From Bdellovibrionales bacterium (GTDB taxonomy: Bacteria > Bdellovibrionota > Bdellovibrionia > Bdellovibrionales > Bdellovibrionaceae), in NCBI GenBank assembly GCA_018266295.1, contig JAFEAQ010000019.1, positions 372,001 to 436,000 on the forward strand: a stretch of DNA of 64,000 bases, given 5' to 3'. The translations under genes and the position numbers were made by a program. Below the pieces are notes generated by a model. The model made no database searches, was not told the DNA's origin, and was given only the letters and a program-made list of their open reading frames with translations. Below are positions 988-52,120 of this stretch, piece after piece; positions within the stretch are counted from its first letter, which is position 1; each line of letters starts with the position of its first letter.

Positions 988-2427
988 TTAGTACACAAAG
1001 GTTGAAGAGTGCAGAACAGTGCTTGTTTGGTTTGTCTCAAACAAGATTTGTTCTTCGATGTAAGAGTTATCCGCTTGGTTTTGCGCCAATTGGCTGACAC
1101 CGTCGCGGTCCATTTGCACGATGATTGGCTGCGTACTGCAGCTCGAGCTTGCGCCGATACCCAAGAAGCCAGAGTTGCTGTGGCAAACACGGCGTTGGCC
1201 AACAACCACGTCCTCAGATCCATTCGCAACTTCTTTCGCGCGAGGGGCCGGGTCGTCCGAGAAGATACCCATTTGCTTTAACTTGTCTTCGGCGCGTTCA
1301 AAGTAGTTTTTGATCACTTTAGCAACCAAGGCAGAAACCGGACTGACTTCGCCGTCTTCAGTGTTTGTCATCAGGCTCATCAAGTCATACTCTTTACCTT
1401 TGTCATCTAAAGAGATGTTGATGCTGCCTTCAAGACCGCCGGTGATAACATCTTCAGTGAATTCGCGGCGCTGGAATTTGCCTTTTTGAATCACGCTGCT
1501 GATATTTCTGAGGAAGTCCGCTGTTTTGATTTTCGCATCAACGAAAAGCTTGATACCGGTTTGCACTTTCACATTGTAGTACATGTTAATCGCCACCGAC
1601 TGAGAGATGATGTCGTTGATGTTGGCTGTTTTTTGTCTATTGCGGCAGTAAACCGAGGTTGAGATGTCTACGATCCCGCTCAAGCCGCCACCCATTGAAA
1701 CGTAAGTCGCGTTGGGATCTTCTGATGCCACATTTGTTGAGGCGGGTTTGTAACCAGGGAAGTTCACTTTCAAAACCGCGCGGCCCGCGTAGCTACCGGC
1801 ATCTGGATTAGAAATAACCAGCGTTGAATCAGCAAGCTGCGCCGGCATAAAACGAACCGGATAAGTTGCGCCGGTGTTTTGACCTGGAACAAGGTTCGCC
1901 GTTTGGAAAGCAAGCACACTGTTCATCACATTGTTAGCCAGAGAATACTTTACGCGAACCGCAGCCATGTCGTCATAAGGCTTAAAGATACCGCGAATTT
2001 CTTTTTTGTATTTGTCGATCTGAAGGCGGGCTTCTTTAATCTGAGCTTCAAGAGCTTTTTGTTGTTCGGCGTTGGCATTACCGAGCTTAGCGACAGCCGC
2101 TTCAACTTGGTTTTCGAGGCTTGTGATTTTAGAGCGATAGTTCGCAAGCGAAGCGGATTGTTGATCCAGAGCCGTACAGAAACCATTGTCAGAGCCTGCA
2201 AGCATTACTGGGGCAGAGATAATCGCCGAGATCTGCTGTGGTGGCAAAATGAAAGCCGTGCTGCAGTCCTTACTGAAGTACACTTGTGATTTGCTAAGAC
2301 CTTGCGGAACATTGATGTCACAAGCTTTTTCAGTTTTAAGAACCGCGAACTGACCTTCTTCAGGACCGGCATAAGCTTTTGGCATTGTAGACAATGCGAT
2401 GGCCGTGCCTAAAATTAGTTTTTTCAT
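988..2427 (-). CDS. Exported protein of unknown function with central coiled coil
   Basis: 479 residues beginning with a signal peptide (MKKLILGTAIALSTMPKAYA, cleavage before GPEEG). Residues of about 90-145 are rich in Lys, Glu, Gln and Ala in a heptad-like pattern and probably form a coiled coil. The rest is Ser/Thr/Asn-rich without a recognisable enzyme motif. Two Cys near the C-terminus (RVCHSNSGFLG, SSSCSTQ) may form a disulfide. The ATG at 2427 is preceded by AAGGAG. The gene is 30 bp downstream of another exported gene and 15 bp upstream of the truncated one, suggesting co-transcription. A surface or periplasmic structural role is conceivable but is inference only. Confidence 0.75.
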   Translation of the reverse strand: MKKLILGTAIALSTMPKAYAGPEEGQFAVLKTEKACDINVPQGLSKSQVYFSKDCSTAFILPPQQISAIISAPVMLAGSDNGFCTALDQQSASLANYRSKITSLENQVEAAVAKLGNANAEQQKALEAQIKEARLQIDKYKKEIRGIFKPYDDMAAVRVKYSLANNVMNSVLAFQTANLVPGQNTGATYPVRFMPAQLADSTLVISNPDAGSYAGRAVLKVNFPGYKPASTNVASEDPNATYVSMGGGLSGIVDISTSVYCRNRQKTANINDIISQSVAINMYYNVKVQTGIKLFVDAKIKTADFLRNISSVIQKGKFQRREFTEDVITGGLEGSINISLDDKGKEYDLMSLMTNTEDGEVSPVSALVAKVIKNYFERAEDKLKQMGIFSDDPAPRAKEVANGSEDVVVGQRRVCHSNSGFLGIGASSSCSTQPIIVQMDRDGVSQLAQNQADNSYIEEQILFETNQTSTVLHSSTFVY

Positions 2428-2457
2428 GTAGTATTCTCCTTAAAGTATTTTTAAGTT

Positions 2458-3039
2458 TTAGTTATAAAGTAGATGCATCCAGGATTTGATTTTGTGTTTG
2501 ACTGGATGGCCGTTGACTTCGTTTTCGCGTTCGGTACCGCAGATGATCCATTTCTTCGCGATCTTCTTGGCTCTTTGCATTTCGCTGCTGTAGCCGACCT
2601 CAATATATTCCAGCTTTTTCAAATCAGAGGTCTTTACGAATTCCACAGCCCAGCGCTCATCGTGGCCAGTGGCTTGATCGTAATTAGTGTCTTGGAATTT
2701 ATAGTGAAGCATGCGAGCGTTTTGCATTTCGATCTGGCGGGTCTTTGAGCTTTTAAACTCAGGAACATAGAACGGAATATATCTTTCAAAACCGTCTTTA
2801 TCGACGATGAGCATGTCAGCGACGATGTTCTCGCGATTTTCTTCTTCGCCGCCGTTCATGTTACAAGTTTGAATTTCCACGTAACAGCTGCCGAGTTGAT
2901 AGCGGCCCTGCATCTCTTGCAGGAATTCAATCATACGGCGGTCTTTTTGATCAGCCAGTGCGTGGGCCGGGCAGTTTCCGAGTCCGGCCAGGCTTTGCTG
3001 ACTTAATAGAAGCACGAGAGTGCCTATCATTCTTTTCAT
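2458..3039 (-). CDS. Exported protein of unknown function
   Basis: 193 residues with an N-terminal signal peptide (MKRMIGTLVLLLSQQSLAG). The ATG follows an AGGGGG ribosome binding site. The mature protein has several Cys residues (NCPAH, SCYVEIQTCNMNGG, IICGTE) that could form disulfides in the periplasm. No domain is recognised. It is the first gene after the REP-like element at 3178-3231 and reads into the 988-2427 gene with a 30 bp gap. Confidence 0.72.
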   Translation of the reverse strand: MKRMIGTLVLLLSQQSLAGLGNCPAHALADQKDRRMIEFLQEMQGRYQLGSCYVEIQTCNMNGGEEENRENIVADMLIVDKDGFERYIPFYVPEFKSSKTRQIEMQNARMLHYKFQDTNYDQATGHDERWAVEFVKTSDLKKLEYIEVGYSSEMQRAKKIAKKWIICGTERENEVNGHPVKHKIKSWMHLLYN

Positions 3040-43049: not shown

Positions 43050-43146
43050 AGCCAATCTGCGCCTGTTTCGGTGAGCACGGAACTTGCTTTAGAGAAAAAC
43101 GGTGAGTTTAACCAGCCGTTTTGGCTCCAAAGTAAAGGATCGTAGA

Positions 43147-44052
43147 ATGTTAACAACTACCAAAAGAGTTTTGGCAGCGGCACTGGCGCTTTCGTCGCTG
43201 GTGGCAAGTAACCCTTCCTTGGCTGCGCTTGAAGGTTCAGCCCGCATCAATCAAGTGACGCGTAAATCTGGTGGCCAACTTTATCGTGCTTACTTAGCTA
43301 GTCCGATTTCGCTTTCTCGTGTTTCCATTGATGTTCTTTCGGCGAAAGCCAAAATCCATGACGCCGCCATCGTGACTGCATCCATGGCGAGCATTCCGCT
43401 TTATAACTTGCAGGAGACCGCTGTGATCCCAGCCGGGAAGAGCGCGGTCTCTGAATATATTAATCGCAATGACTTGATCATCGCTGTCGATGTTCAAGCA
43501 GAATCTTTCGGTGCCGTTGCAGATTTGCGCTTGCGCGTGGCTTCGGAAGATGGTGCACCTAAAATCTCGGCGGTGATTCCGCAAGATAGCTCCGGTTCTT
43601 TGAACCCAGCTCCGCCTTCATCGCCTCAGCCACCGCCATACTACCCACAACCAACTCCGCCGCCACCACCACCTCCACCAACGCCGACTCCGCCAGAAGT
43701 GGTGTACTTGAGCTATCCGTTCTCAAACCGTGGCAATCAGAAAATTTCTTGCTCAGCAACCGACAAGGGCTGGGAAGAGCACTGGGGCGGGCACGGCAGC
43801 TGCGGTGAGTGCTTGAAGAAACACGGTGAGTGCATTGAAACTTGCACAGCAACCGACGTGGTTGTGTACGGCACAGGCTATGATGTTTACGGACGCATTG
43901 CGAAGTTCGAAGGCCGCGGTGGTGATTCTTACGATGCTCGTCGCGATATGCAGCAAGTGTGTGATTACTACCGTCTGACTCGCTGTGAATCTGATCCTGG
44001 AAAATCAGACTCGACAAACAGTGACGTGGTTTCAAGACGTTCTTGCAAATAG
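43147..44052 (+). CDS. Exported two-domain protein with proline-rich linker
   Basis: 301 residues from the ATG at 43147, which has AAAGGA upstream and gives a signal peptide (MLTTTKRVLAAALALSSLVASNPSLA). Residues about 27-150 form a beta-sandwich-like domain (ALEGSARINQVTRKSGGQLYRAYLASPISLSRVSIDVLSAKAKIHDAAI). A proline-rich linker spans about 154-183. The C-terminal domain (about 185-301) has eight or so Cys (KISCSATDKGW, GSCGECLKKHGECIETCTATD, QVCDYYRLTRCESD), disulfide-rich. Looks like a surface or periplasmic binding protein; function unknown. Confidence 0.73.
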   Translation: MLTTTKRVLAAALALSSLVASNPSLAALEGSARINQVTRKSGGQLYRAYLASPISLSRVSIDVLSAKAKIHDAAIVTASMASIPLYNLQETAVIPAGKSAVSEYINRNDLIIAVDVQAESFGAVADLRLRVASEDGAPKISAVIPQDSSGSLNPAPPSSPQPPPYYPQPTPPPPPPPPTPTPPEVVYLSYPFSNRGNQKISCSATDKGWEEHWGGHGSCGECLKKHGECIETCTATDVVVYGTGYDVYGRIAKFEGRGGDSYDARRDMQQVCDYYRLTRCESDPGKSDSTNSDVVSRRSCK

Positions 44053-44055
44053 TCC

Positions 44056-44307
44056 CTACTTAAAAAGTTTGATGTCGAACTTCTTCGTGGCCTTCGGGCT
44101 GCGAAGTTCGGTGGCCAATTTCAGTGCCAGATTGCCGGCCTCTGAACGGACCAGATAGGCCGGTTTTTCTAAAGTTCCATGACGGGTGATTTTTTTACCT
44201 TTGATTTCCTTGGTCACGGACTCCGTATAGACTTCTTCGACGGTGCCCGAAACCGGCTTACCGAGCCATAGCCATTCGACTTTGCTTTTTTGTTTGAATT
44301 TTTCCAT
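44056..44307 (-). CDS. Hypervirulence-associated TUDOR-domain protein (DUF2945)
   Basis: 83 residues. VEWLWLGKPVSGTVEEVYTESVTKEIKGKKITRHGTLEKPAYLVRSEAGNLALKLATELRS matches the DUF2945 (HVA1 TUDOR) family: V-x-W-x-W ... G-x-V-x-x-V-Y ... T-x-x-I-K-G-x-x-x-T-R-x-G-T ... P-A-Y-L-x ... L-K-L-x-x-E-L. These are small cytoplasmic proteins of unknown biochemistry, common in bacteria with stress or redox genes. It lies 20 bp downstream of the lipocalin gene on the same strand. Confidence 0.85.
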   Translation of the reverse strand: MEKFKQKSKVEWLWLGKPVSGTVEEVYTESVTKEIKGKKITRHGTLEKPAYLVRSEAGNLALKLATELRSPKATKKFDIKLFK

Positions 44308-44327: not shown

Positions 44328-44864
44328 TTAAGACTGAGGCACCTTTTGGATTTTATTAATGTCATATCCCATGGCTTCAAGTTTTTTATAGATGGCGTCT
44401 AAAGTTTCGGGCGGCAGAGTTTTACCACGTGCCATGATCCAGACGTAGTTTCGGCTTGGTACGCCGATCACGGTGTAAGAATAATCCGGGGCTAAATCAA
44501 TCACGAGATAGGCAAATTTGAGCGGCCACCACGGCTGAACTCTCCACTCGGCGTTGGTTTTTTCATCGTAGATCCATGCCTTCTGGGGATAGCTTTTAAG
44601 TTCTCCACCCGGGTGATCTTTGCGATAGTGAAAATCGACATCAATGCGCTTTTCCTTCTCGTTCCAAGTGTAAGCCTCCACCGCATTGGTCGCGCCCTTT
44701 TCAACAAAGGTCGGAATATTGGCAATCACAAACCATGGCCCCATAAATTTCGGAATGTCGACATAACTCACTGTTTTGAGCGGTTCGGTGTGTTTCATGG
44801 TTTCGCAACCTCCCAGTAAAAAAATCAGACACAAAAGTGAACAGAGGACTTTGAGATTTTTCAT
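44328..44864 (-). CDS. blc: Outer-membrane lipocalin lipoprotein
   Basis: 178 residues. A lipobox LGGC gives a lipidated Cys at C20. MGPWFVIANIPTFVEKGATNAVEAYTWNEKEKRIDVDF holds the lipocalin G-x-W motif and the family start, and YSYTVIGVPSRNYVWIMARG is the third conserved region. Bacterial Blc binds lysophospholipids or fatty acids at the outer membrane. It is 9 bp downstream of the MerR/B12 regulator gene and so may be in its transcript, linking it with the divergent lipid-modification operon. Confidence 0.92.
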   Translation of the reverse strand: MKNLKVLCSLLCLIFLLGGCETMKHTEPLKTVSYVDIPKFMGPWFVIANIPTFVEKGATNAVEAYTWNEKEKRIDVDFHYRKDHPGGELKSYPQKAWIYDEKTNAEWRVQPWWPLKFAYLVIDLAPDYSYTVIGVPSRNYVWIMARGKTLPPETLDAIYKKLEAMGYDINKIQKVPQS

Positions 44865-44873
44865 AAAACCTCC

Positions 44874-45794
44874 TTATTCAAGCTGCTTAAGGTAAGCAAT
44901 ATACTCTTCCATGGACTTCAAATATGTCACGGGTCGCTCCAATTTAGCTTTAAACTCAAAAGTGTTCCGGCCAGCAATAAGAATGTGAACTTTCTTTGGC
45001 AAATTCTTGTCGAGAAAATTCACATAGGAGTAAAGACTTTCTTTTGCACCTTCTTTTTCTGAAACCGTGCTTGCAAGAAGAAGGTGAGTGGCCTTATAGC
45101 GAATGCAGCTCTCGCACAGGTCCATCTTCGGAGTGCTAGGGCCCAAAAAAAGAGTCTTCACTGAATTCTCGGCGGCAAGGGTTGCAGAGATCACAATCCC
45201 CATATCATGTAGATCTCCCTCGGGAGTTGTCATCACCAGACGGGATTCTGATTTTGCTTTGCGAGATTTTGCACGCATCAGCACAAGCTGCTCTTTGACG
45301 AGGGCTGAAAGAATATGCTCTTGCGCTACGGTAAATTGACCCTCGCCCACCAGGTAACCCATGTGACCCACTAAGGGCATCAATGTTTGTTGGATAAACG
45401 GCTCGGCCTTCATAGCACTTCTTTTTTTGTCTAAAAGATCTTTGATTTCATCCCACAAAAAAAGCTGAGCTTTTCCCATGACGGTTTTTAAAAAACCATC
45501 TTGAACACGCTCTTCGTTGCTGGAAGACAAAGTTTCGGTCTCTGGAACAAGGGCTTTAAGTTCCTTTAAAGAAAGACCCGCAATATCGCCGATGCGATGG
45601 CCCTTTGTGCTGAGTTCATCCAAGAGCCGGGCTTTTTCAATATCTTGCAAAGTGTAAAGGCGGCGGCCCGTGTCAGTTCTTTGAGGGTTAAAGGCCTGGT
45701 AACGGTTTTCCCAGCCACGCAAGGTGAACTCGGAAAGTCCAGTGATCTCAATAAGCTGTCGTATAGAGAAAAATTCTTTGGGCCGACTCGACAT
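44874..45794 (-). CDS. MerR-type regulator with cobalamin-binding domain (CarH/LitR-like)
   Basis: 306 residues. Residues 8-75 are a MerR helix-turn-helix (FFSIRQLIEITGLSEFTLRGWENRY ... GRRLYTLQDIEKARLL). A four-helix-bundle part (about 100-180) has the EH pair (E159, H160), and TPEGDLHDMGI contains the cobalamin motif DxHxxG (D194, H196, G199). This is the CarH/LitR light-sensing repressor architecture. The Trp that caps the adenosyl group, ten residues before the Glu of the EH pair in CarH, is Val149 here. So it may bind cobalamin without classical light-triggered release. It is divergent from a lipid-modification operon, and a palindrome overlaps both promoters. The predicted -10 is only 7 bp from the ATG. 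Confidence 0.88.
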   Translation of the reverse strand: MSSRPKEFFSIRQLIEITGLSEFTLRGWENRYQAFNPQRTDTGRRLYTLQDIEKARLLDELSTKGHRIGDIAGLSLKELKALVPETETLSSSNEERVQDGFLKTVMGKAQLFLWDEIKDLLDKKRSAMKAEPFIQQTLMPLVGHMGYLVGEGQFTVAQEHILSALVKEQLVLMRAKSRKAKSESRLVMTTPEGDLHDMGIVISATLAAENSVKTLFLGPSTPKMDLCESCIRYKATHLLLASTVSEKEGAKESLYSYVNFLDKNLPKKVHILIAGRNTFEFKAKLERPVTYLKSMEEYIAYLKQLE

Positions 45795-45801
45795 ATTTCT
45801 A

Positions 45802-45846
45802 ATAATAAATCACGGACTTGGTTTTGTATAGAAAATTCTATACAAT
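45802..45846. promoter_or_regulatory. Divergent promoters sharing one palindromic operator
   Basis: Arms TTGTATAGAA (45824-45833) and TTCTATACAA (45836-45845) are perfect inverted repeats separated by 2 bp. Plus strand: TTGGTT (45818-45823) and TACAAT (45841-45846), 17 bp apart, with the palindrome filling the spacer. Minus strand: TATACA (45825-45830) inside the palindrome and TATTAT (45802-45807), also 17 bp apart. A regulator bound here would control both directions. Confidence 0.75.
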
Positions 45847-45887
45847 ATCAGTCACATCATATAACTCCCTTACGGGCGAGGTGAATC

Positions 45888-47150
45888 GTGAAAATAGCGG
45901 TGATCGGCGGGGGAATCAGTGGTCTTGGCAGTGCGTGGATTCTGAGCCAGAAACACGAAGTGCATCTTTTTGAGTCGGAAAACCGTCTCGGCGGACACGC
46001 TCACACCGTGCAAGTACAAAGCGTGCAGGCCGGAAAAGTTCCTGTGGATACGGGATTTTTGGTCTATAATGATCTGACTTACCCACATTTGCGTTCGTTC
46101 TTTAAAGAGCTGCAAGTTGAAACTGTTGAATCAGACATGTCCTTGGCGGTTCGTTCCCTATACCAGGGCCTTGAGTGGGCGGGCACGAACCTCGACACGG
46201 TCTTTGCTCAACGAAGAAATCTTTTGCGTCCGCGCTTCTTACAAATGCTGGCGGATATTTTACGCTTTCACCGTGAATCCGAAGAAAATCTTCGTCAGGC
46301 CCAGCAGCTCGGTTGGTCCCTCGGTGAACTTCTGAAGCGTGGAAAGTATAGCGAAGCTTTCCGTAAAGATTATCTCTTACCCATCGGTGCGGCAATCTGG
46401 TCGACTCCAGAGAAAGGGATGGAAAGTTTCCCGGCTTCTACCTTCTTAGCTTTCTTTATTAATCACCGGCTTTTGCAAATCAACGAACGCCCGGTATGGC
46501 GAACCGTCAAAGGCGGCTCGATTGAATATGTCCAAAAAGTTGCCGCGAAGATTCCATTTATTCACACTGGCGTAGCTGTGTCTGAGGTGCAAAGACAGTC
46601 TCAGGGAGTGCAGGTTCGAGTCGGTGGCGAGAGCCTGAACTTTGATGCGGTGGTTTTTGCCACTCACGCTCCGGTCACCAGCAGGATTTTGCGTGGTCAG
46701 AGCCCGCTTGAACGAAAGGTTTTGAGCGCAGTTCAAACTCAGAACAATCGCACCATCCTTCATCAGGATGAAAGCTTTATGCCTGAAAGAAAGAAGTGTT
46801 GGTCTTCGTGGAATGTTCTAAGTGCTCCACCCCAAGAAGAGCATGAGGCCGTATCTCTGACTTATTTTATTAATAAGCTCCAGCCTTTGGGCACGCCTGA
46901 GAACTATTTTGTCACCTTGAATCCACGGAAAGAAATTCATCAACCCCTGGGTGAATTTGATTATGCTCATCCACAGTTTGATCAAAAAGCGATTGAAGCA
47001 CAGACTTTATTGCCGGAAATTCAAGGGCAAGGGGGCGTTTATTTTGCGGGTGCATGGACTCGCTATGGATTTCATGAAGACGGCCTCTTAAGTGCGGTCC
47101 GAGTGGCAGAGCTTTTCGGCATTCAGCCACAGTGGTGGGAACGGTTATGA
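45888..47150 (+). CDS. FAD-dependent amine-oxidase-like protein (UfaD/COG2907 type)
   Basis: 420 residues from a GTG. KIAVIGGGISGLGSAWILSQKHEVHLFESENRLGGHAHTV is an FAD-binding Rossmann motif of the amine-oxidase/phytoene-desaturase class. PVDTGFLVYNDLTYPHLRSFFKEL is the diagnostic block of the COG2907 family. A C-terminal flavin motif YFAGAWTRYGFHEDGLLSAVRVAELF follows. In alphaproteobacteria a relative (UfaD) dehydrogenates a methylated fatty acyl chain on the way to furan fatty acids. First gene of the operon; its stop overlaps the DUF1365 start by 4 bp. Confidence 0.9.
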   Translation: MKIAVIGGGISGLGSAWILSQKHEVHLFESENRLGGHAHTVQVQSVQAGKVPVDTGFLVYNDLTYPHLRSFFKELQVETVESDMSLAVRSLYQGLEWAGTNLDTVFAQRRNLLRPRFLQMLADILRFHRESEENLRQAQQLGWSLGELLKRGKYSEAFRKDYLLPIGAAIWSTPEKGMESFPASTFLAFFINHRLLQINERPVWRTVKGGSIEYVQKVAAKIPFIHTGVAVSEVQRQSQGVQVRVGGESLNFDAVVFATHAPVTSRILRGQSPLERKVLSAVQTQNNRTILHQDESFMPERKKCWSSWNVLSAPPQEEHEAVSLTYFINKLQPLGTPENYFVTLNPRKEIHQPLGEFDYAHPQFDQKAIEAQTLLPEIQGQGGVYFAGAWTRYGFHEDGLLSAVRVAELFGIQPQWWERL

Positions 47151-47896
47151 GCCAAGCTTTTTTCTTGCACGGTCATGTGGGGCATTCCCGCTTAGGAATC
47201 AAAGAAAATGGATTCCGATATCCGATTTTTAATTATCTTTTCTGTTGTCGGGATGAAGAGTCGATATCCTCAGAATTACGCCAAAGATTTCATCGGGTCC
47301 TCGGCCTGCGAGCCAGGGACTATTTAGACGGCCAGGCTGAGTCTTTCGATCGAGGAATTCGCGAGTTTTTAAAGATTCATTGCAAATATGAGGTTGAAGA
47401 AGTTTGGCTGCAAACGTGCCCACGAATGTTCGGCTATGTTTTTAATCCCGTGAGCTTCTGGTTCTGTAAAAGAAACGGAGAGCTCGAGGCCGTTCTTGTT
47501 GAGGTTAACAATACATTTGGCGAACGACATTTTTACTGGCTGTATAAGCCTGGAGAAATGATTCATCCATTTCAGTGGCTGCGCGCTGAAAAAGTTTTTC
47601 ACGTCAGTCCCTTTTACCCCGTGGATGGATACTATGAGTTTCGCTTTCAATTCACCGGAGAGAAATCACGGGTTGATATTGTTTATTTCTCAGAAGCCGG
47701 CAAGATTCGCCTGATCACATGGATTAAAGGAAATCTTAAACCACAGGCCAAGCAGACTCTGTTTTCATTGCTATGGCGCTATGGCTGGATGACCCCGCTT
47801 GTGGTCTTACGCATTCATTGGCAGGCACTGAAGCTATGGTGCAAACGAGTTTCATTCTTTTCAAAACCAGAACCCCCGACCAAGGAGATCACATGA
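47147..47896 (+). CDS. DUF1365 protein
   Basis: 249 residues from an ATG overlapping the upstream stop (ATGA). AFFLHGHVGHSRLGIKENGFRYPIFNYLF and FGYVFNPVSFWFCKRNGELEAVLVEVNNTFGERHFYW are the DUF1365 (COG3496) family blocks; HVSPFYPVDGYYEFRF follows. The family is nearly always beside a COG2907 flavoprotein and a cyclopropane-synthase-like methyltransferase, and it was found in light- or singlet-oxygen-induced operons; its biochemistry is not settled. The stop overlaps the methyltransferase ATG by 4 bp. Confidence 0.92.
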   Translation: MSQAFFLHGHVGHSRLGIKENGFRYPIFNYLFCCRDEESISSELRQRFHRVLGLRARDYLDGQAESFDRGIREFLKIHCKYEVEEVWLQTCPRMFGYVFNPVSFWFCKRNGELEAVLVEVNNTFGERHFYWLYKPGEMIHPFQWLRAEKVFHVSPFYPVDGYYEFRFQFTGEKSRVDIVYFSEAGKIRLITWIKGNLKPQAKQTLFSLLWRYGWMTPLVVLRIHWQALKLWCKRVSFFSKPEPPTKEIT

Positions 47897-49065
47897 AAAG
47901 TCTTTCAATTAAGGCCAGACTTTTTTTAAGGCTTTTAAAAAATACCAAAGGCGGTACCGTGCGCGTGGTTTTCCCAGACGGCACCCAAGACATTTTTGGC
48001 GCGGGACTTCCGGAAGTCTCTGTCGAGGCCCGTGACTGGCAAGTTTTTGATGAAATGGTTGATAAAGGGGATCTTGGCCTTGCGGAGACGATCATCTCGG
48101 GCCGTCTTGTCGTGAGCGACGTCAGCCAGCTGGTTCAGTGGGCTTGTCGCAATGATCAGGACCTTGCCAGATTCATCCATGGGACATGGTATGGAACTTT
48201 GGCCGATCGCTTCCGCCGGGTCTTGACTCGCAATAGCCGTGACGGAGCTAAACGCAACATCATGGCTCACTATGATTTAGGAAATGAATTCTATAAACTT
48301 TGGCTCGATCCAACCATGACGTACTCATCGGCGCTATATACGGAGGCCGATCAAGATTTAACGGTGGCGCAACTGCAGAAATACGATCGCATTATTGATC
48401 AGCTGGGAATTAATGCCGGAGATCATATTCTGGAGATCGGTTGCGGTTGGGGTGGGTTTTTCAGTCGAGCAGTCGAACGCACGGGGTGTAAGGTCACGGC
48501 GGTGATGAATTCACCGGCTCAGGCTAAGCACAACCGTGAGATGATCGCGCGCAAAGGCCTTGAAGGACAAGTTGAGCTTCGCCAGCAAGACTATCGCGAT
48601 ATCGAAGGCCGGTTTGACAAGATTGTTTCTATTGAAATGATCGAAGCCGTCGGTGAGACTTACTGGAAAACTTTTTTTGATAAAGTGTCGGCCTCTTTAA
48701 AATCAGGAGGGCAGGCGATGATTCAGTCCATCACCATTCAAGATTCTCTCTTTGATAATTACCGCGAAAAAACGGACTTTATCCAGCGCTATATTTTCCC
48801 GGGAGGAATGCTTTTGGCGCCTAAGGTGTTTAACTCCTACGGAGGGAACAGCGGTCTGAAAGTGGCAGCGCCCTTTGAGTTTGGTCTTTCTTATGCCGAG
48901 ACTCTGAACCGGTGGCTTCAAAGCTTCAACGACAAAGAACAAGACGTCCGCGCACTGGGATTTGATGATCATTTCATGCGTCTCTGGCGCTTGTACCTTT
49001 CTTATTGTGAAGGAGCCTTCCGCGCGGGGCGAATCAATGTCGGTCACTATCATTTGCAAAAGTAA
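47893..49065 (+). CDS. Cyclopropane-fatty-acid-synthase-like methyltransferase
   Basis: 390 residues from the ATG at 47893 (AAGGAG upstream, 4 bp overlap with the previous stop). NIMAHYDLGNEFYKLWLDPTMTYSSALY is the CFA synthase substrate-side motif, and LEIGCGWGGFFSRAVERTGCKVTAV is the SAM-binding loop; IVSIEMIEAVGETYW and QSITIQD follow. The enzyme transfers a methyl(ene) group to the double bond of an unsaturated phospholipid acyl chain. In this neighbourhood it is a candidate for UfaM-type methylation or classical cyclopropanation. Confidence 0.92.
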   Translation: MKSLSIKARLFLRLLKNTKGGTVRVVFPDGTQDIFGAGLPEVSVEARDWQVFDEMVDKGDLGLAETIISGRLVVSDVSQLVQWACRNDQDLARFIHGTWYGTLADRFRRVLTRNSRDGAKRNIMAHYDLGNEFYKLWLDPTMTYSSALYTEADQDLTVAQLQKYDRIIDQLGINAGDHILEIGCGWGGFFSRAVERTGCKVTAVMNSPAQAKHNREMIARKGLEGQVELRQQDYRDIEGRFDKIVSIEMIEAVGETYWKTFFDKVSASLKSGGQAMIQSITIQDSLFDNYREKTDFIQRYIFPGGMLLAPKVFNSYGGNSGLKVAAPFEFGLSYAETLNRWLQSFNDKEQDVRALGFDDHFMRLWRLYLSYCEGAFRAGRINVGHYHLQK

Positions 49066-49083
49066 ATAAAAGGGGGATGTTGT

Positions 49084-50130
49084 ATGGTTCTCGGATTTTT
49101 TATCGATTTAATGGAGAGGGGATTGTTACCTCAGTCTTGCATTCGTTGGGGAATTCGTCATCTCTGTCACACGCGCCTCAAGAGTCTTGCCAGTGACAAT
49201 CCCGAACAGGAACAAGAGAGGGATTCTCGTTACATTCAAGAACTCAAGCAGTCGGCCATTGCCTTTGCTACTCAGAAGGCCAATCAGCAGCACTATGAAA
49301 TCCCAGCTGAGTTTTATAATCTTGTTCTGGGACCACGGCGCAAATATAGTTCCGGCTTCTGGCCTGAAAACTGCCAAAGTCTCGCCGAGTCTGAAGATCA
49401 AGCTTTAGAAATTTCCATTCAACGGGCCGAGATCGAAGACGGTATGAGCATCCTTGATTTGGGCTGTGGCTGGGGCTCGATGACTTTGAAACTGGCTGAA
49501 ATGTTCCCGAATGCGAATATAAAAGCACTTTCAAACTCTTCATCGCAGCGGGAGTTTATCATGGCCGAAGCTCAGCGGCGTGGGTTTATGAATATCCAAG
49601 TCGTGACTGGTGATATCAGCGTTTTCGCCGGTCAAGGTTGGGAATCCACCTTTGATCGGGTGGTGAGTATTGAAATGCTTGAACATGTTCGCAACTACGA
49701 AGCCCTTTTTGAAAAAATCAGCGGTTGGCTTAAGCCCGGCGGCAAAATGTTTGTTCATATTTTTTCTCACCGTCAGCATGCTTACCCCTTTGACGTCGAG
49801 GGTGAGGATAACTGGATGGGAAGATATTTTTTCACCGGCGGGCAAATGCCGAGCCACCATCTTCTGACTCGCTTTCAAAAACATCTCCTTCTTGAGGACG
49901 AATGGGCTTGGAGTGGTCGGCATTATCAGAAGACTTCTGAAGCGTGGTTACGGAATATGGATCTGCATAGGGGCCAAATTCTGGAAATCTTTAAAAAGGT
50001 CTATGGCGAAAACGAAGCTTCACGCTGGCTGGAACGCTGGAGAGTATTCTTTATGTCTTGCGCGGAGCTCTTTGGCTATCGTCAGGGAAGAGAATGGGGC
50101 GTATCTCATTACCGATTCGTGAAAAGATAG
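49084..50130 (+). CDS. Second CFA-like SAM methyltransferase
   Basis: 348 residues. HYEIPAEFYNLVLGPRRKYSSGFWPENCQSLAESEDQALEISIQRAEIEDGMSILDLGCGWGSMTLKLAEMFPNANIKALSNSSSQREFI resembles the cyclopropane-synthase/coclaurine N-methyltransferase-like branch rather than classical CFA synthase. SIEMLEHVRNYEALFEKISGWLKPGGKMFVHIFSH follows. SAM use is certain; the methyl acceptor is unknown. It is 18 bp after the first methyltransferase. Two such enzymes in one operon could act in sequence on one lipid. Confidence 0.9.
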   Translation: MVLGFFIDLMERGLLPQSCIRWGIRHLCHTRLKSLASDNPEQEQERDSRYIQELKQSAIAFATQKANQQHYEIPAEFYNLVLGPRRKYSSGFWPENCQSLAESEDQALEISIQRAEIEDGMSILDLGCGWGSMTLKLAEMFPNANIKALSNSSSQREFIMAEAQRRGFMNIQVVTGDISVFAGQGWESTFDRVVSIEMLEHVRNYEALFEKISGWLKPGGKMFVHIFSHRQHAYPFDVEGEDNWMGRYFFTGGQMPSHHLLTRFQKHLLLEDEWAWSGRHYQKTSEAWLRNMDLHRGQILEIFKKVYGENEASRWLERWRVFFMSCAELFGYRQGREWGVSHYRFVKR

Positions 50131-50139
50131 GAGGTTCAG

Positions 50140-50934
50140 ATGGATTTCTCACTGTCGATTGTCGCCGCAGTTGTATTAATGCTGGTGGTAATGTCTGTCA
50201 CTTGGCTATTGGCGAAGCGCTGGGATAACTACAGCATTGTCGATGCTGCCTGGGCAGGATCTTTTGCCATCATCGCATTGTTTTTTGCCCTGACTCAGCC
50301 CGGGTTGCTGCTACGGAAAACTCTCATGCTTTTTGCCGTGGGAATTTGGAGTTTGCGCTTAGCCATTTTTCTAACACGCCGGATTCGCAGTCATCATCCG
50401 GTGGAGGACTCTCGGTATCAGCAGCTCCGGGCTGAGTACGGAAAGCACGCACCGGCGCGGTTCTTTTTATTCTTTCAATATCAGGCTTTGAGTGTTGTTT
50501 TGTTGGCGATTCCTTTTTTAGAAGTCTTTCGGTCGGACATAGGCTCTTTAAGCGGTGTTGAGATCGCCGGGTTTTTATTGATTTGCTTGTCTTTGATCGG
50601 CGAAAGCATCGCAGACGCTCAAGCACAGAAATTTAAGCAGAATCCCGAGAATAAAAATAAAACCTGCCAAGTGGGGCTCTGGCGTTACTCGCGTCACCCG
50701 AATTATTTTTTTGAAAGCTGTGTGTGGTGGGGATTTTACCTCTTTGCAATCGGTGCTGCCGGCGCTTATTACACTGTCTATGCGCCTTTGATTATTTTAT
50801 TTTTGCTCTTGAAGGTCACTGGAGTACCACCATCGGAGGCCGCTGCTTTGAAAAAACGCGGTGAGGAGTACCGTCGTTATCAGCAAACAACTTCAATGTT
50901 TGTCCCATGGTTTCCGAAAAAGGACCCTCATTGA
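50140..50934 (+). CDS. DUF1295 membrane protein (steroid 5-alpha-reductase-like)
   Basis: 264 residues with six or seven membrane segments. WDNYSIVDAAWAGSF near the start and GLWRYSRHPNYFFESCVWWGFYLFAIG, then KKRGEEYRRYQQTTSMFVPWFPKK, are the DUF1295 (COG3752) hallmarks; the RHPNY region is also seen in isoprenylcysteine methyltransferases and sterol reductases. It probably reduces or modifies a membrane lipid. It is 9 bp after the second methyltransferase; the stop overlaps the next start by one base (TGATG). Confidence 0.9.
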   Translation: MDFSLSIVAAVVLMLVVMSVTWLLAKRWDNYSIVDAAWAGSFAIIALFFALTQPGLLLRKTLMLFAVGIWSLRLAIFLTRRIRSHHPVEDSRYQQLRAEYGKHAPARFFLFFQYQALSVVLLAIPFLEVFRSDIGSLSGVEIAGFLLICLSLIGESIADAQAQKFKQNPENKNKTCQVGLWRYSRHPNYFFESCVWWGFYLFAIGAAGAYYTVYAPLIILFLLLKVTGVPPSEAAALKKRGEEYRRYQQTTSMFVPWFPKKDPH

Positions 50935-51392
50935 TGATGAAACGAGTGCAGACTTTTTTGCAGGATCAACTTCGCCAGGGTACAAGCCCCCAGGCTTTGG
51001 CTCTCACTATTGCCGTCGGAGCAGCTATTGCAGTTTTTCCGACTCTCGGCGCGACCACTTTGCTTTGTTTTCTCGCGGGTGTTGTTTTGAAATTGAATCA
51101 ACCTGCACTTCAAGTGATTAACTATGCGTTAGCGCCACTCCAGCTTCTGTTGATTCCATTTTTTCTAAAGTTGGGGGCGTGGATTTGCCGGGTGCCGGCG
51201 GTCTCAGTCAACCCTCAAACGATGATCGCTGAATTCTGGGCTAGTCCTGGAAAGTTTCTGGCCGACTACGGATGGGCAGGGCTTCAGGCCATTCTTGCGT
51301 GGATTGTGGTGGCTCCGTTCATCGTCCTTATCACACGCTTTGTGATGAAATATTTAATCGATAAAGCGCAAAAAATACGGAGCCCGAAATGA
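50934..51392 (+). CDS. DUF2062 small membrane protein
   Basis: 152 residues. FLQDQLRQGTSPQALALTIAVGAAIAVFPTLGATTLLCFLAGVVLKLNQPALQVINYALAPLQLLLIPFFLKLG matches DUF2062: the G-x-x-x-x-x-x-A-x-x-x-x-x-G-x-x-x-x-x-x-P opening and N-x-x-x-x-P in helix two. Three membrane helices are predicted. Function of the family is unknown. The ATG overlaps the preceding TGA; a second ATG follows directly. The stop overlaps the next start by 4 bp. Confidence 0.85.
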   Translation: MMKRVQTFLQDQLRQGTSPQALALTIAVGAAIAVFPTLGATTLLCFLAGVVLKLNQPALQVINYALAPLQLLLIPFFLKLGAWICRVPAVSVNPQTMIAEFWASPGKFLADYGWAGLQAILAWIVVAPFIVLITRFVMKYLIDKAQKIRSPK

Positions 51393-52120
51393 AATTCTAT
51401 TCGTTGATCATTTCTTTTTTGCTCTCTATTTCGGCGACGGTTTGGTCGGCCAGTGAAACGATTGTGTCTCGCTTATTTCCCATTGGCCAGACGGAGCAAA
51501 AGCCTCTGTACACTCAAACCACTCAAATTGAAAAAAACGGTCCGGAGTCTTTCACTTCCAACGCGCGCATTGAAGATGCCAAAGGCCAGATCATGATGAC
51601 AGAAGTGGTGGTGGTGAAAGAAGGGACCTTGGTTTCTCAAAAAGTCACTCAGCTACAAACTTCTCAAGCCTGGGATTTAGCCGTTCAAGCAAAGAAAGCC
51701 ACTTATCAAAGTTTTAAGCTGAAGGGCGACGGCTCTAGGGATAAAACCAGCGAAAATTCTGTCGAGATGGCTGAAGACTTTATCAATGGACCGATGATTG
51801 AACTCTTCATTGTCAAACACTGGCAGACTCTGATTGAAGGAAAGACGGTCAAGGCTCATTTGAGTGTGCTTGAGCTCGAAAAACCAGTCTCGTTTGAATT
51901 TAAGAAAGAGGCGGACAGCTCACGTGGCGGGCAAAAAGTTTTAGTGGTTCAAATGAGGCCGGCTAATTTCTTGATCGCGATGCTGGTCGATCCGATTCGT
52001 CTCGAATTTAGTTATGAGGGAAAAAGGCTCGTTTACTTTAAGGGCCGCACACCCTTAAAGATTCAAGAGGGAGGTAAAAATATCCCTCTTGATGCAGAAA
52101 TTCTTTATTCGGTTCAGTAG
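51389..52120 (+). CDS. Exported protein closing the lipid operon
   Basis: 243 residues with a signal peptide (MKFYSLIISFLLSISATVWS). The mature domain is beta-rich (SETIVSRLFPIGQTEQKPLYTQTTQIEKNGPESFTSNARIEDAKGQIMMTEVVVVKEGTLVS). Similar periplasmic proteins (DUF6134-like) sit beside this class of clusters, but I cannot confirm the family. The start overlaps the DUF2062 stop by 4 bp, so it is translationally coupled. It could bind or carry the modified lipid. It abuts the converging 52121 gene. Confidence 0.72.
   Translation: MKFYSLIISFLLSISATVWSASETIVSRLFPIGQTEQKPLYTQTTQIEKNGPESFTSNARIEDAKGQIMMTEVVVVKEGTLVSQKVTQLQTSQAWDLAVQAKKATYQSFKLKGDGSRDKTSENSVEMAEDFINGPMIELFIVKHWQTLIEGKTVKAHLSVLELEKPVSFEFKKEADSSRGGQKVLVVQMRPANFLIAMLVDPIRLEFSYEGKRLVYFKGRTPLKIQEGGKNIPLDAEILYSVQ

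Follow-up and report, generated by a model that had tools for sequence, protein, structure and literature searches.

A seven-gene operon in the 64,000-nucleotide stretch analysed here (the window) appears to encode a complete dimethyl furan fatty-acid pathway under a repressor of the CarA/CarH type, with a role in photo-oxidative membrane protection; we put the probability of this reading at roughly 0.7. The operon spans positions 45888–52120 of the forward strand and diverges from the gene for a MerR-family regulator with a cobalamin-binding domain (Table 1). Its genes, in the order ufaD, ufaO, ufaM, fufM, DUF1295, DUF2062 and secreted protein, overlap or are separated by gaps of 18 bp and 9 bp. 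The ufaO ATG overlaps the ufaD TGA, and a GTG at 47132 gives a longer alternative ufaO start. A sequence-only reading had described a MerR regulator facing a tightly spaced seven-gene operon, and the reading frames, their order and the gaps are as it claimed; Pfam likewise confirmed each family that it named (COG2907-type, DUF1365, CFA-like, DUF1295, DUF2062 and MerR).

Three other genomes of the family (loci L194–L196) carry the lipocalin, MerR, ufaD-ufaO-ufaM-fufM, DUF1295, DUF2062 and secreted-protein genes in the same order, with 47–75% identity between counterparts, and the arrangement is therefore not due to chance. Unlike the window lipocalin, those of L194–L196 lie on the other strand. 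A 'Bdellovibrio beta-sandwich' Pfam domain at 43102–44052 fits the Bdellovibrio lineage.

Table 1. Features of the predicted furan fatty-acid locus, in window positions.
Feature	Position	Strand	Predicted role	Basis
ufaD homologue	45888..47150	+	FAD-dependent, COG2907/amine-oxidase-like acyl desaturase	Pfam, identity
ufaO homologue (DUF1365)	47147..47896	+	O2-dependent furan-forming protein	Pfam, PMC7380195
ufaM homologue ('CFA1')	47893..49065	+	SAM-dependent cis-vaccenoyl methyltransferase	Identity, tree, residues
fufM homologue ('CFA2')	49084..50130	+	Coclaurine-NMT-like; second ring methylation	Identity, tree
DUF1295 membrane protein, steroid-reductase-like	50140..50934	+	Candidate accessory pathway enzyme	Pfam, linkage
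DUF2062 membrane protein	50907..51392	+		Pfam
Secreted protein, possible DUF1849/LolA-like beta-barrel fold	51389..52120	+	Presumably periplasmic	AlphaFold, structure alignment
Blc-type lipocalin lipoprotein	44328..44864	-	Probable regulon member	Pfam
MerR-family regulator, CarH/CarA-type cobalamin-binding domain	44874..45794	-	Putative repressor	Pfam, alignment, AlphaFold
Putative operator, perfect 22-bp palindrome	45824..45845	.		Genome and family pattern search

Furan fatty-acid synthesis has been worked out in two alphaproteobacteria, R. palustris and R. sphaeroides, where it depends on UfaM, UfaD, UfaO and FufM (Lemke 2020, PMC7380195); the same four enzyme families are present in the window. 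In R. palustris, ufaD, ufaO and ufaM are necessary and sufficient for the mono-methyl furan, and the reductant of UfaO is described as unknown (PMC7380195). The window order ufaD-ufaO-ufaM equals that of RPA2571-2570-2569, whereas fufM lies elsewhere in Rhodopseudomonas, together with DUF1295, and both are inside the same operon here. Acting on existing phospholipid chains, UfaM would methylate an unsaturated chain, which in R. sphaeroides is cis-vaccenate, UfaD would desaturate the product to a methylated conjugated diene, UfaO would insert oxygen from O2 and close the furan ring, and FufM would add a second ring methyl to give a dimethyl furan fatty acid.

The profile searches that had been proposed as a check on the furan reading matched the flavoprotein to Pfam Amino_oxidase (1e-24) and the protein encoded next to it to DUF1365 (8e-64). 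The flavoprotein is FAD-binding, amine-oxidase-like and homologous to the ufaO-adjacent protein of furan producers, with 39–44% identity to the Rhodopseudomonas UfaD encoded beside UfaO and UfaM. UfaO contains a DUF1365 domain (PMC7380195). The window's DUF1365 gene, the only one in the whole genome, adjoins ufaD and ufaM, and its product is 35–36% identical to Rhodopseudomonas UfaO. Reference UfaM and UfaD sequences were taken from Rhodopseudomonas genomes and not from R. sphaeroides.

The first methyltransferase ('CFA1') bears on the cyclopropane option that the sequence-only reading had named beside furan. In a rival of this kind, the products would be cyclopropane or simple methyl-branched fatty acids, and the flavoprotein and DUF1365 protein would act outside furan synthesis. 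The protein has a strong CMAS Pfam match and its closest solved relatives are CFA synthases, but it is 40–42% identical to Rhodopseudomonas UfaM versus 32–36% to the CFA synthase of that genus. In the tree it falls with the UfaM of this furan-producing genus (support 100/97), apart from a separately supported CFA clade (96/82). The CFA synthase residues tested were C139, E239, H266, I268 and Y317 (E. coli numbering), at positions that we take to be the bicarbonate site. The window protein has S139, E239, A240, Q266, I268 and Y317, and so departs from this set at 139 and 266 and has Ala for His at 240. CFA synthases carry His at both 240 and 266, whereas S139, A240 and Q266 are UfaM-type residues, the latter two recurring in all 24 UfaM proteins defined by synteny and in all three from Rhodopseudomonas. 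The tree and the active-site residues disfavour a cyclopropane synthase for 'CFA1', and the adjoining UfaD and UfaO homologues further argue against a cyclopropane operon, which we regard as very improbable. The activity predicted for the protein is that which defines UfaM, the conversion of cis-vaccenoyl chains to 11Me-12t-18:1. Elsewhere in the genome, no CMAS-family methyltransferase exceeded the family cut-off.

Both methyltransferases had been described as CFA-like; the family assignment held, but their equivalence did not, as the second ('CFA2') resembles coclaurine N-methyltransferase (PDB 6gkv, E 1e-66; best CFA synthase, E 8e-24). It is 44–48% identical to, and clades at 100/100 support with, a Rhodopseudomonas FufM that was itself inferred from CMAS-family membership, 27–30% identity to UfaM, CNMT-like character and position beside DUF1295, and not from the tag RPA0924. 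Since the solved structures closest to it are those of coclaurine and pavine N-methyltransferases, 'CFA2' might instead methylate nitrogen in, for example, a lipid or small amine, leaving mono-methyl furan chains only. This is unlikely given its identity to the Rhodopseudomonas protein whose family and low UfaM identity point to FufM, and given that, in most of the Bdellovibrionota loci inspected, fufM comes immediately after ufaM. Furthermore, Arabidopsis LIME1 was named FufM-like from 37.87% identity to FufM (PMC10940516). The favoured assignment is thus FufM, defined by methylation of 9M5-FuFA to 9D5-FuFA. Because the DUF1365 protein belongs to the UfaO family and the second methyltransferase matches FufM, the whole known furan pathway is predicted, which strengthens the original furan fatty-acid proposal; neither of these two assignments had been made there. 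The genes ufaD-ufaO-ufaM adjoin fufM in 18/20 sampled Bdellovibrionota and 13/20 Pseudomonadota fufM loci.

The DUF1295 protein (Pfam, 6e-71) belongs to a family whose genes neighbour fufM in the same orientation at 38 of 40 loci across two phyla. In Chlamydomonas, singlet oxygen co-induces DUF1295 with the same gene families in a SAK1-dependent set: CFA1, the coclaurine-NMT-like CFA2/CPLD27 and DUF1365, together with DUF2177 (PMC4067076). The algal genes differ in being nuclear and under another regulator, and the available part of that report does not describe the set as a furan pathway. Gene linkage suggests a conserved membrane protein that works alongside FufM, making DUF1295 a candidate accessory enzyme. 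DUF2062 (Pfam, 1e-12) occurs in 10/20 Bdellovibrionota and 0/20 Pseudomonadota fufM loci.

The secreted-protein gene is present in 8/20 Bdellovibrionota fufM loci, and its product matched no Pfam family, even with the cut-off relaxed to E 5. Alignment of its AlphaFold model (pLDDT 90.8) with the DUF1849 structure 6ntr gave Z 13.4 over 195 residues at rmsd 4.2 (VIA-align), and Foldseek TM to DUF1849 was 0.41–0.44; these values are only suggestive of a DUF1849/LolA-like beta-barrel. The lipocalin gene (Lipocalin_2, 8e-31) follows the regulator gene on its strand after a 9-bp gap, and lipocalins are found at 10/20 Pseudomonadota fufM loci. In two relatives (genomes G201 and G203, loci L195 and L196), a lipocalin pair has its own operator copy just upstream; this shared operator supports the suggestion that the lipocalin joins the system, and makes it a probable regulon member. 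Both the lipocalin and the secreted beta-barrel-like protein would probably bind furan or other lipids, or move them, within the envelope.

The regulator combines Pfam MerR_1 and B12-binding_2. Its AlphaFold model (pLDDT 84) has the CarH architecture of MerR DNA-binding domain, four-helix bundle and Rossmann cobalamin domain, and the cobalamin-binding domain matches CarH with a TM of about 0.83 to the target. Alignment to T. thermophilus CarH and a residue survey showed that EH, DxHxxG and the lower-ligand His are kept, as are two further elements of the photoreceptor signature in the literature, GxxH and GxxxP. The Wx9EH motif (GxxW plus EH) is broken, with Val in place of Trp; this Trp is absent from all Bdellovibrionota homologues examined, which have Val, Ala or another residue. 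Against the CarH B12-binding motif D/ExHx2G-x41-SxT/V-x22-27-GG, DLHDMG is present in the window regulator, Ser is changed to Ala and GG to AG; relatives L194–L196 keep SST, with AG.

GxxW and Wx9EH are described as motifs that define CarH; CarA, in which the Trp is missing, acts independently of B12 (PMC8156234, PMC9304148). The 'B12-type' label of the sequence-only reading is consequently apt for the cobalamin-domain fold, lower-ligand His and EH, but not for the defining Trp. Because Val replaces the capping Trp, the regulator falls outside the CarH definition and is, as judged from its residues, CarA-like: CarA also keeps EH and the B12-motif His and has lost the Trp. The behaviour that defines CarA is B12-independent DNA binding relieved by CarS. 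The window regulator shares its MerR DNA-binding and cobalamin-binding domains with CarA and CarH of Myxococcus and Thermus, and differs from them in its lipid-operon target and in Val at the Trp position. A true AdoCbl photoreceptor, with another residue standing in for the Trp, would be consistent with the retained EH, GxxH, GxxxP and lower-ligand His and with the CarH-like fold. Direct light sensing is nonetheless doubtful, because the adenosyl-capping Trp is missing, throughout the Bdellovibrionota homologues examined, and two B12-motif positions differ. This regulator lies near fufM in only 3/20 sampled Bdellovibrionota fufM loci.

The 93-bp divergent intergenic region contains a perfect 22-bp palindrome, TTGTATAGAA-AA-TTCTATACAA, which overlaps the promoter-like hexamers of the regulator and has no other zero-mismatch match in the genome. 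A perfect 10-bp arm was reached in 0.12% of shuffles. The pattern TGTAYAGAANNNNCTATACA occurs in 10/66 family genomes (reversed control, 0), and at every site inspected the neighbour was this regulator, ufaD, a lipocalin gene, or a paralogue of the regulator that faces the gene for a polyprenyl (possibly carotenoid) synthase. Near-matches with up to three mismatches in the window's own genome were no commoner than for the control (106 vs 185) and give no grounds for proposing a wider regulon. The divergent CarA/CarH-type repressor would bind the palindrome between the two transcripts; light or singlet oxygen endangering the membrane would probably relieve this repression, and the furan lipids, a class of membrane lipid known from other organisms to scavenge singlet oxygen, would then do so here.

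LitR-family regulators control a light-induced cluster of ufaM and FAD-oxidoreductase genes in Pseudomonas (PMC9758184). As in the window, a MerR/LitR-family repressor is encoded beside the cluster and its site overlaps a promoter element, the window operator being putative. Pseudomonas class II LitR, however, has the four-helix bundle only, and a short LOV protein relieves its repression, whereas the window regulator has both cobalamin subdomains; the operators also differ, TTGTATAG-N6-CTATACAA here versus TGTACA-N12-TGTACA. No LOV motif (GxNCRFLQ) was found in the genome at one mismatch, and a Pseudomonas-type LOV antirepressor was rejected on this ground. RpoE-ChrR control was likewise rejected, as TIGR02451 gave no match to a ChrR-type anti-sigma factor in the genome (Caulobacter, the control genome, was positive); the LitR/CarA-like regulator stands here instead of the ChrR of the R. 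palustris/R. sphaeroides system. These known alternative sensors are therefore absent, which counts against the preferred reading. ChrR-like ORFs were seen near ufaD in several Pseudomonadota loci by a heuristic regular expression only, without profile confirmation.

A light or oxidant link for the operon is suggested by its relatives: the same gene families are under light or singlet-oxygen control in Pseudomonas, R. sphaeroides and Chlamydomonas. The operon could instead tune the envelope more generally, in response to growth phase, prey invasion or membrane stress, given that three of the genes here (secreted beta-barrel-like protein, lipocalin and DUF2062) are of envelope type and that a literature search did not turn up any report linking Bdellovibrio to furan fatty acids. 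The control of these families in the relatives makes such a role improbable, as do the paralogous regulator with the same operator facing the polyprenyl synthase gene and a photolyase gene after ufaD-ufaO in locus L037.

Photo-oxidative defence thus remains the preferred reading, and this locus and its relatives bring the four known enzyme types together within a single operon in a phylum other than that of the two alphaproteobacteria. DUF1295 is nominated as a missing partner from its fufM linkage in two phyla and its singlet-oxygen co-induction in an alga. A tentative extension would make DUF1295 an unrecognised component of dimethyl furan fatty-acid synthesis in bacteria and algae, and Trp-less cobalamin-domain repressors a distinct sensor class, controlling through one 22-bp operator a photo-oxidative regulon of furan lipids, lipocalin, DUF3833 and polyprenyl synthase in Bdellovibrio relatives. 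A concrete putative operator and a small candidate regulon are now available for a cobalamin-domain regulator whose mechanism must differ in some respect from that of CarH, so that the claims on lipids and on sensing are both open to tests at the bench. If true, the finding would suggest that relatives of Bdellovibrio, possibly predatory themselves, run a programme of membrane photo-protection.

The arrangement proposed in the sequence-only reading, a MerR regulator facing a tightly packed seven-gene operon, was reproduced by an ORF map, and a Pfam search matched each family named there. Within the operon, neighbouring genes overlap or lie 18 or 9 bp apart. The stop codon of ufaD overlaps the ATG of the DUF1365 gene, and the DUF1365 stop codon overlaps that of the first methyltransferase gene. 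A Blc-type lipocalin gene lies 9 bp beyond the regulator gene on the same strand. A gene for an 83-residue Hva1_TUDOR protein, oriented likewise, comes about 20 bp after the lipocalin gene and may be co-transcribed. As to lineage, the window gave a single hint, a secreted protein rich in proline that carries Pfam's 'Bdellovibrio beta-sandwich' domain.

Coordinates of features in the window and at related loci
Feature	Locus	Position	Strand
Beta-sandwich secreted protein	window	43102-44052	
Hva1_TUDOR protein	window	44056-44307	-
MerR/cobalamin-domain regulator	window	44874-45794	-
Putative operator	window	45824-45845	
Seven-gene operon	window	45888-52120	+
DUF1365 gene, ATG	window	47147	+
Regulator with intact Wx9EH	L244	9986-10900	
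Lipocalin-DUF3833 operon	L279 (G206)	1543-3020	
Operator before polyprenyl synthase gene	L267 (G194), L276 (G021)	around 1501	
Short ufaM-like ORF	L037	9997-10293	
DNA photolyase	L037	10268-11788	

UfaM, UfaD and UfaO, the last of which contains DUF1365, convert cis-vaccenoyl chains into a methyl furan chain; the dimethyl form is produced by a fourth enzyme, FufM (Lemke et al. 2020, PMC7380195). In R. palustris, ufaD-ufaO-ufaM correspond to RPA2571-2569, and RPA0924 is 26% identical to R. sphaeroides UfaM (PMC7380195). Four Rhodopseudomonas reference genomes, found via a light-harvesting gene, were searched with the CMAS profile. One strong match adjoins ufaO and ufaD and is UfaM, a further match in two of the four genomes is an ordinary CFA synthase, and a weaker, CNMT-like match adjoins DUF1295. 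This last protein fits FufM and was taken as the candidate reference because of its low identity to UfaM (27-30%) and because LIME1, a FufM-like protein of Arabidopsis, was assigned at 37.87% identity to FufM (PMC10940516).

The first methyltransferase of the window shares 40-42% identity with Rhodopseudomonas UfaM, compared with 32-36% with CFA synthase, and in a maximum-likelihood tree of 63 sequences it falls in the UfaM clade (100/97), apart from CFA synthases (96/82). It carries Ala240 and Gln266, as do all 24 synteny-defined UfaM and three Rhodopseudomonas UfaM, where CFA synthases have His. The second enzyme is 44-48% identical to candidate FufM, lies in the FufM clade (100/100) and has that group's His-His and Phe268 active site. 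No other CMAS-family methyltransferase was found in the genome above the family cut-off. Together, these observations argue for the order ufaD-ufaO-ufaM-fufM, a predicted complete dimethyl-furan fatty-acid set, and favour the proposed furan operon with a UfaM-like methyltransferase.

FufM-like proteins were found in 66 of 369 genomes of the phylum that were searched. Among 20 Bdellovibrionota fufM loci, taken by FufM score and not at random, ufaD, ufaO and ufaM adjoin fufM in 18, with DUF1295 in 19, DUF2062 in 10 and the secreted protein in eight; 20 Pseudomonadota loci taken likewise have DUF1295 nearby in 19, ufaD/O/M in 13 and a lipocalin in 10. Three genomes of the same family (L194-L196) match the window gene for gene, including lipocalin and regulator. 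At L034, L035 and L041, ufaD-ufaO pairs occur without an adjoining ufaM; in the L034 genome (G057), a separate contig (L200) carries fufM, DUF1295 and the secreted protein. At L037, a DNA photolyase gene directly follows ufaD-ufaO, with a short ufaM-like N-terminal ORF, perhaps a broken ufaM, between them.

A Chlamydomonas study lists CFA1, CFA2, DUF1365, DUF2177 and DUF1295 among SAK1-dependent genes induced by singlet oxygen, and another of its tables names CFA2 a coclaurine N-methyltransferase (PMC4067076). This co-induction independently points to joint action of these families and makes DUF1295 a likely partner in the pathway; one guess is that it supplies electrons to UfaO. A DUF2177 membrane protein, present in that Chlamydomonas set, also recurs at Pseudomonadota furan loci (L245, L253, L255, L259 and L263) and near ufaD in L034. 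For the last operon gene, Pfam gave no match with the cut-off relaxed to E 5. The confident model of its secreted product (pLDDT 90.8) aligns with DUF1849 over 195 residues (Z 13.4, rmsd 4.2), with LolA-type proteins a weaker match. It may plausibly have a periplasmic lipid-related role.

The AlphaFold model of the regulator matches CarH structures (cobalamin-domain TM about 0.83 to target), and the protein retains the lower-ligand His (DLHDMG), the EH pair and GxxxP. CarH is defined by Wx9EH with the B12 motif, whereas CarA has EH and the B12 motif without the Trp and functions independently of B12 (PMC9304148, PMC8156234); a photoreceptor signature GxxW/EH/GxxH/GxxxP has also been described (PMC11796333). 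In the window regulator Val takes the place of the Wx9EH Trp, a residue that the Bdellovibrionota homologues examined lack as well. By these criteria the regulator does not qualify as CarH and is CarA-like. True CarH-type regulators also adjoin these genes: at L244, a Pseudomonadota fufM locus, the neighbouring regulator has an intact Wx9EH and both B12-binding Pfam domains. A Pseudomonas class II LitR cluster contains light-induced ufaM (PMC9758184). Neither a LOV motif nor ChrR was found in the genome. Judged from relatives such as the Pseudomonas cluster, the best guess for the regulator's input is light or singlet oxygen.

The 93-bp divergent region holds a putative operator, a perfect palindrome (TTGTATAGAAAATTCTATACAA) across two 10-base arms, which overlaps a promoter-like site of the regulator. 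It is the sole zero-mismatch match in the genome, and arms as long arose in 0.12% of shuffles. Among 66 genomes from this family, 10 contain the pattern TGTAYAGAANNNNCTATACA and none contains it reversed. Some of the inspected sites separate the regulator from ufaD or fall at the promoter of the regulator itself; at L040 and L042 they separate the regulator from a divergent transcript leading to ufaD. Sites also precede a lipocalin pair (L269, with a matching site, L271, in G203) and, at L279, a lipocalin-DUF3833 operon with another secreted-protein ORF after it, which supports the suggestion that the lipocalin joins the set. At L267 and L276 the operator lies between a paralogous MerR/cobalamin-domain regulator, 31% identical to that of the window, and a facing gene for a polyprenyl synthase, in what may be a carotenoid cluster. 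Across family loci, the pattern makes a strong phylogenetic footprint. The locus, whose functions are all inferred from sequence, is ordinary in its parts and uncommon as a whole, combining a predicted complete dimethyl-furan fatty-acid operon, a conserved extra partner, a CarA-like regulator and a defined operator.
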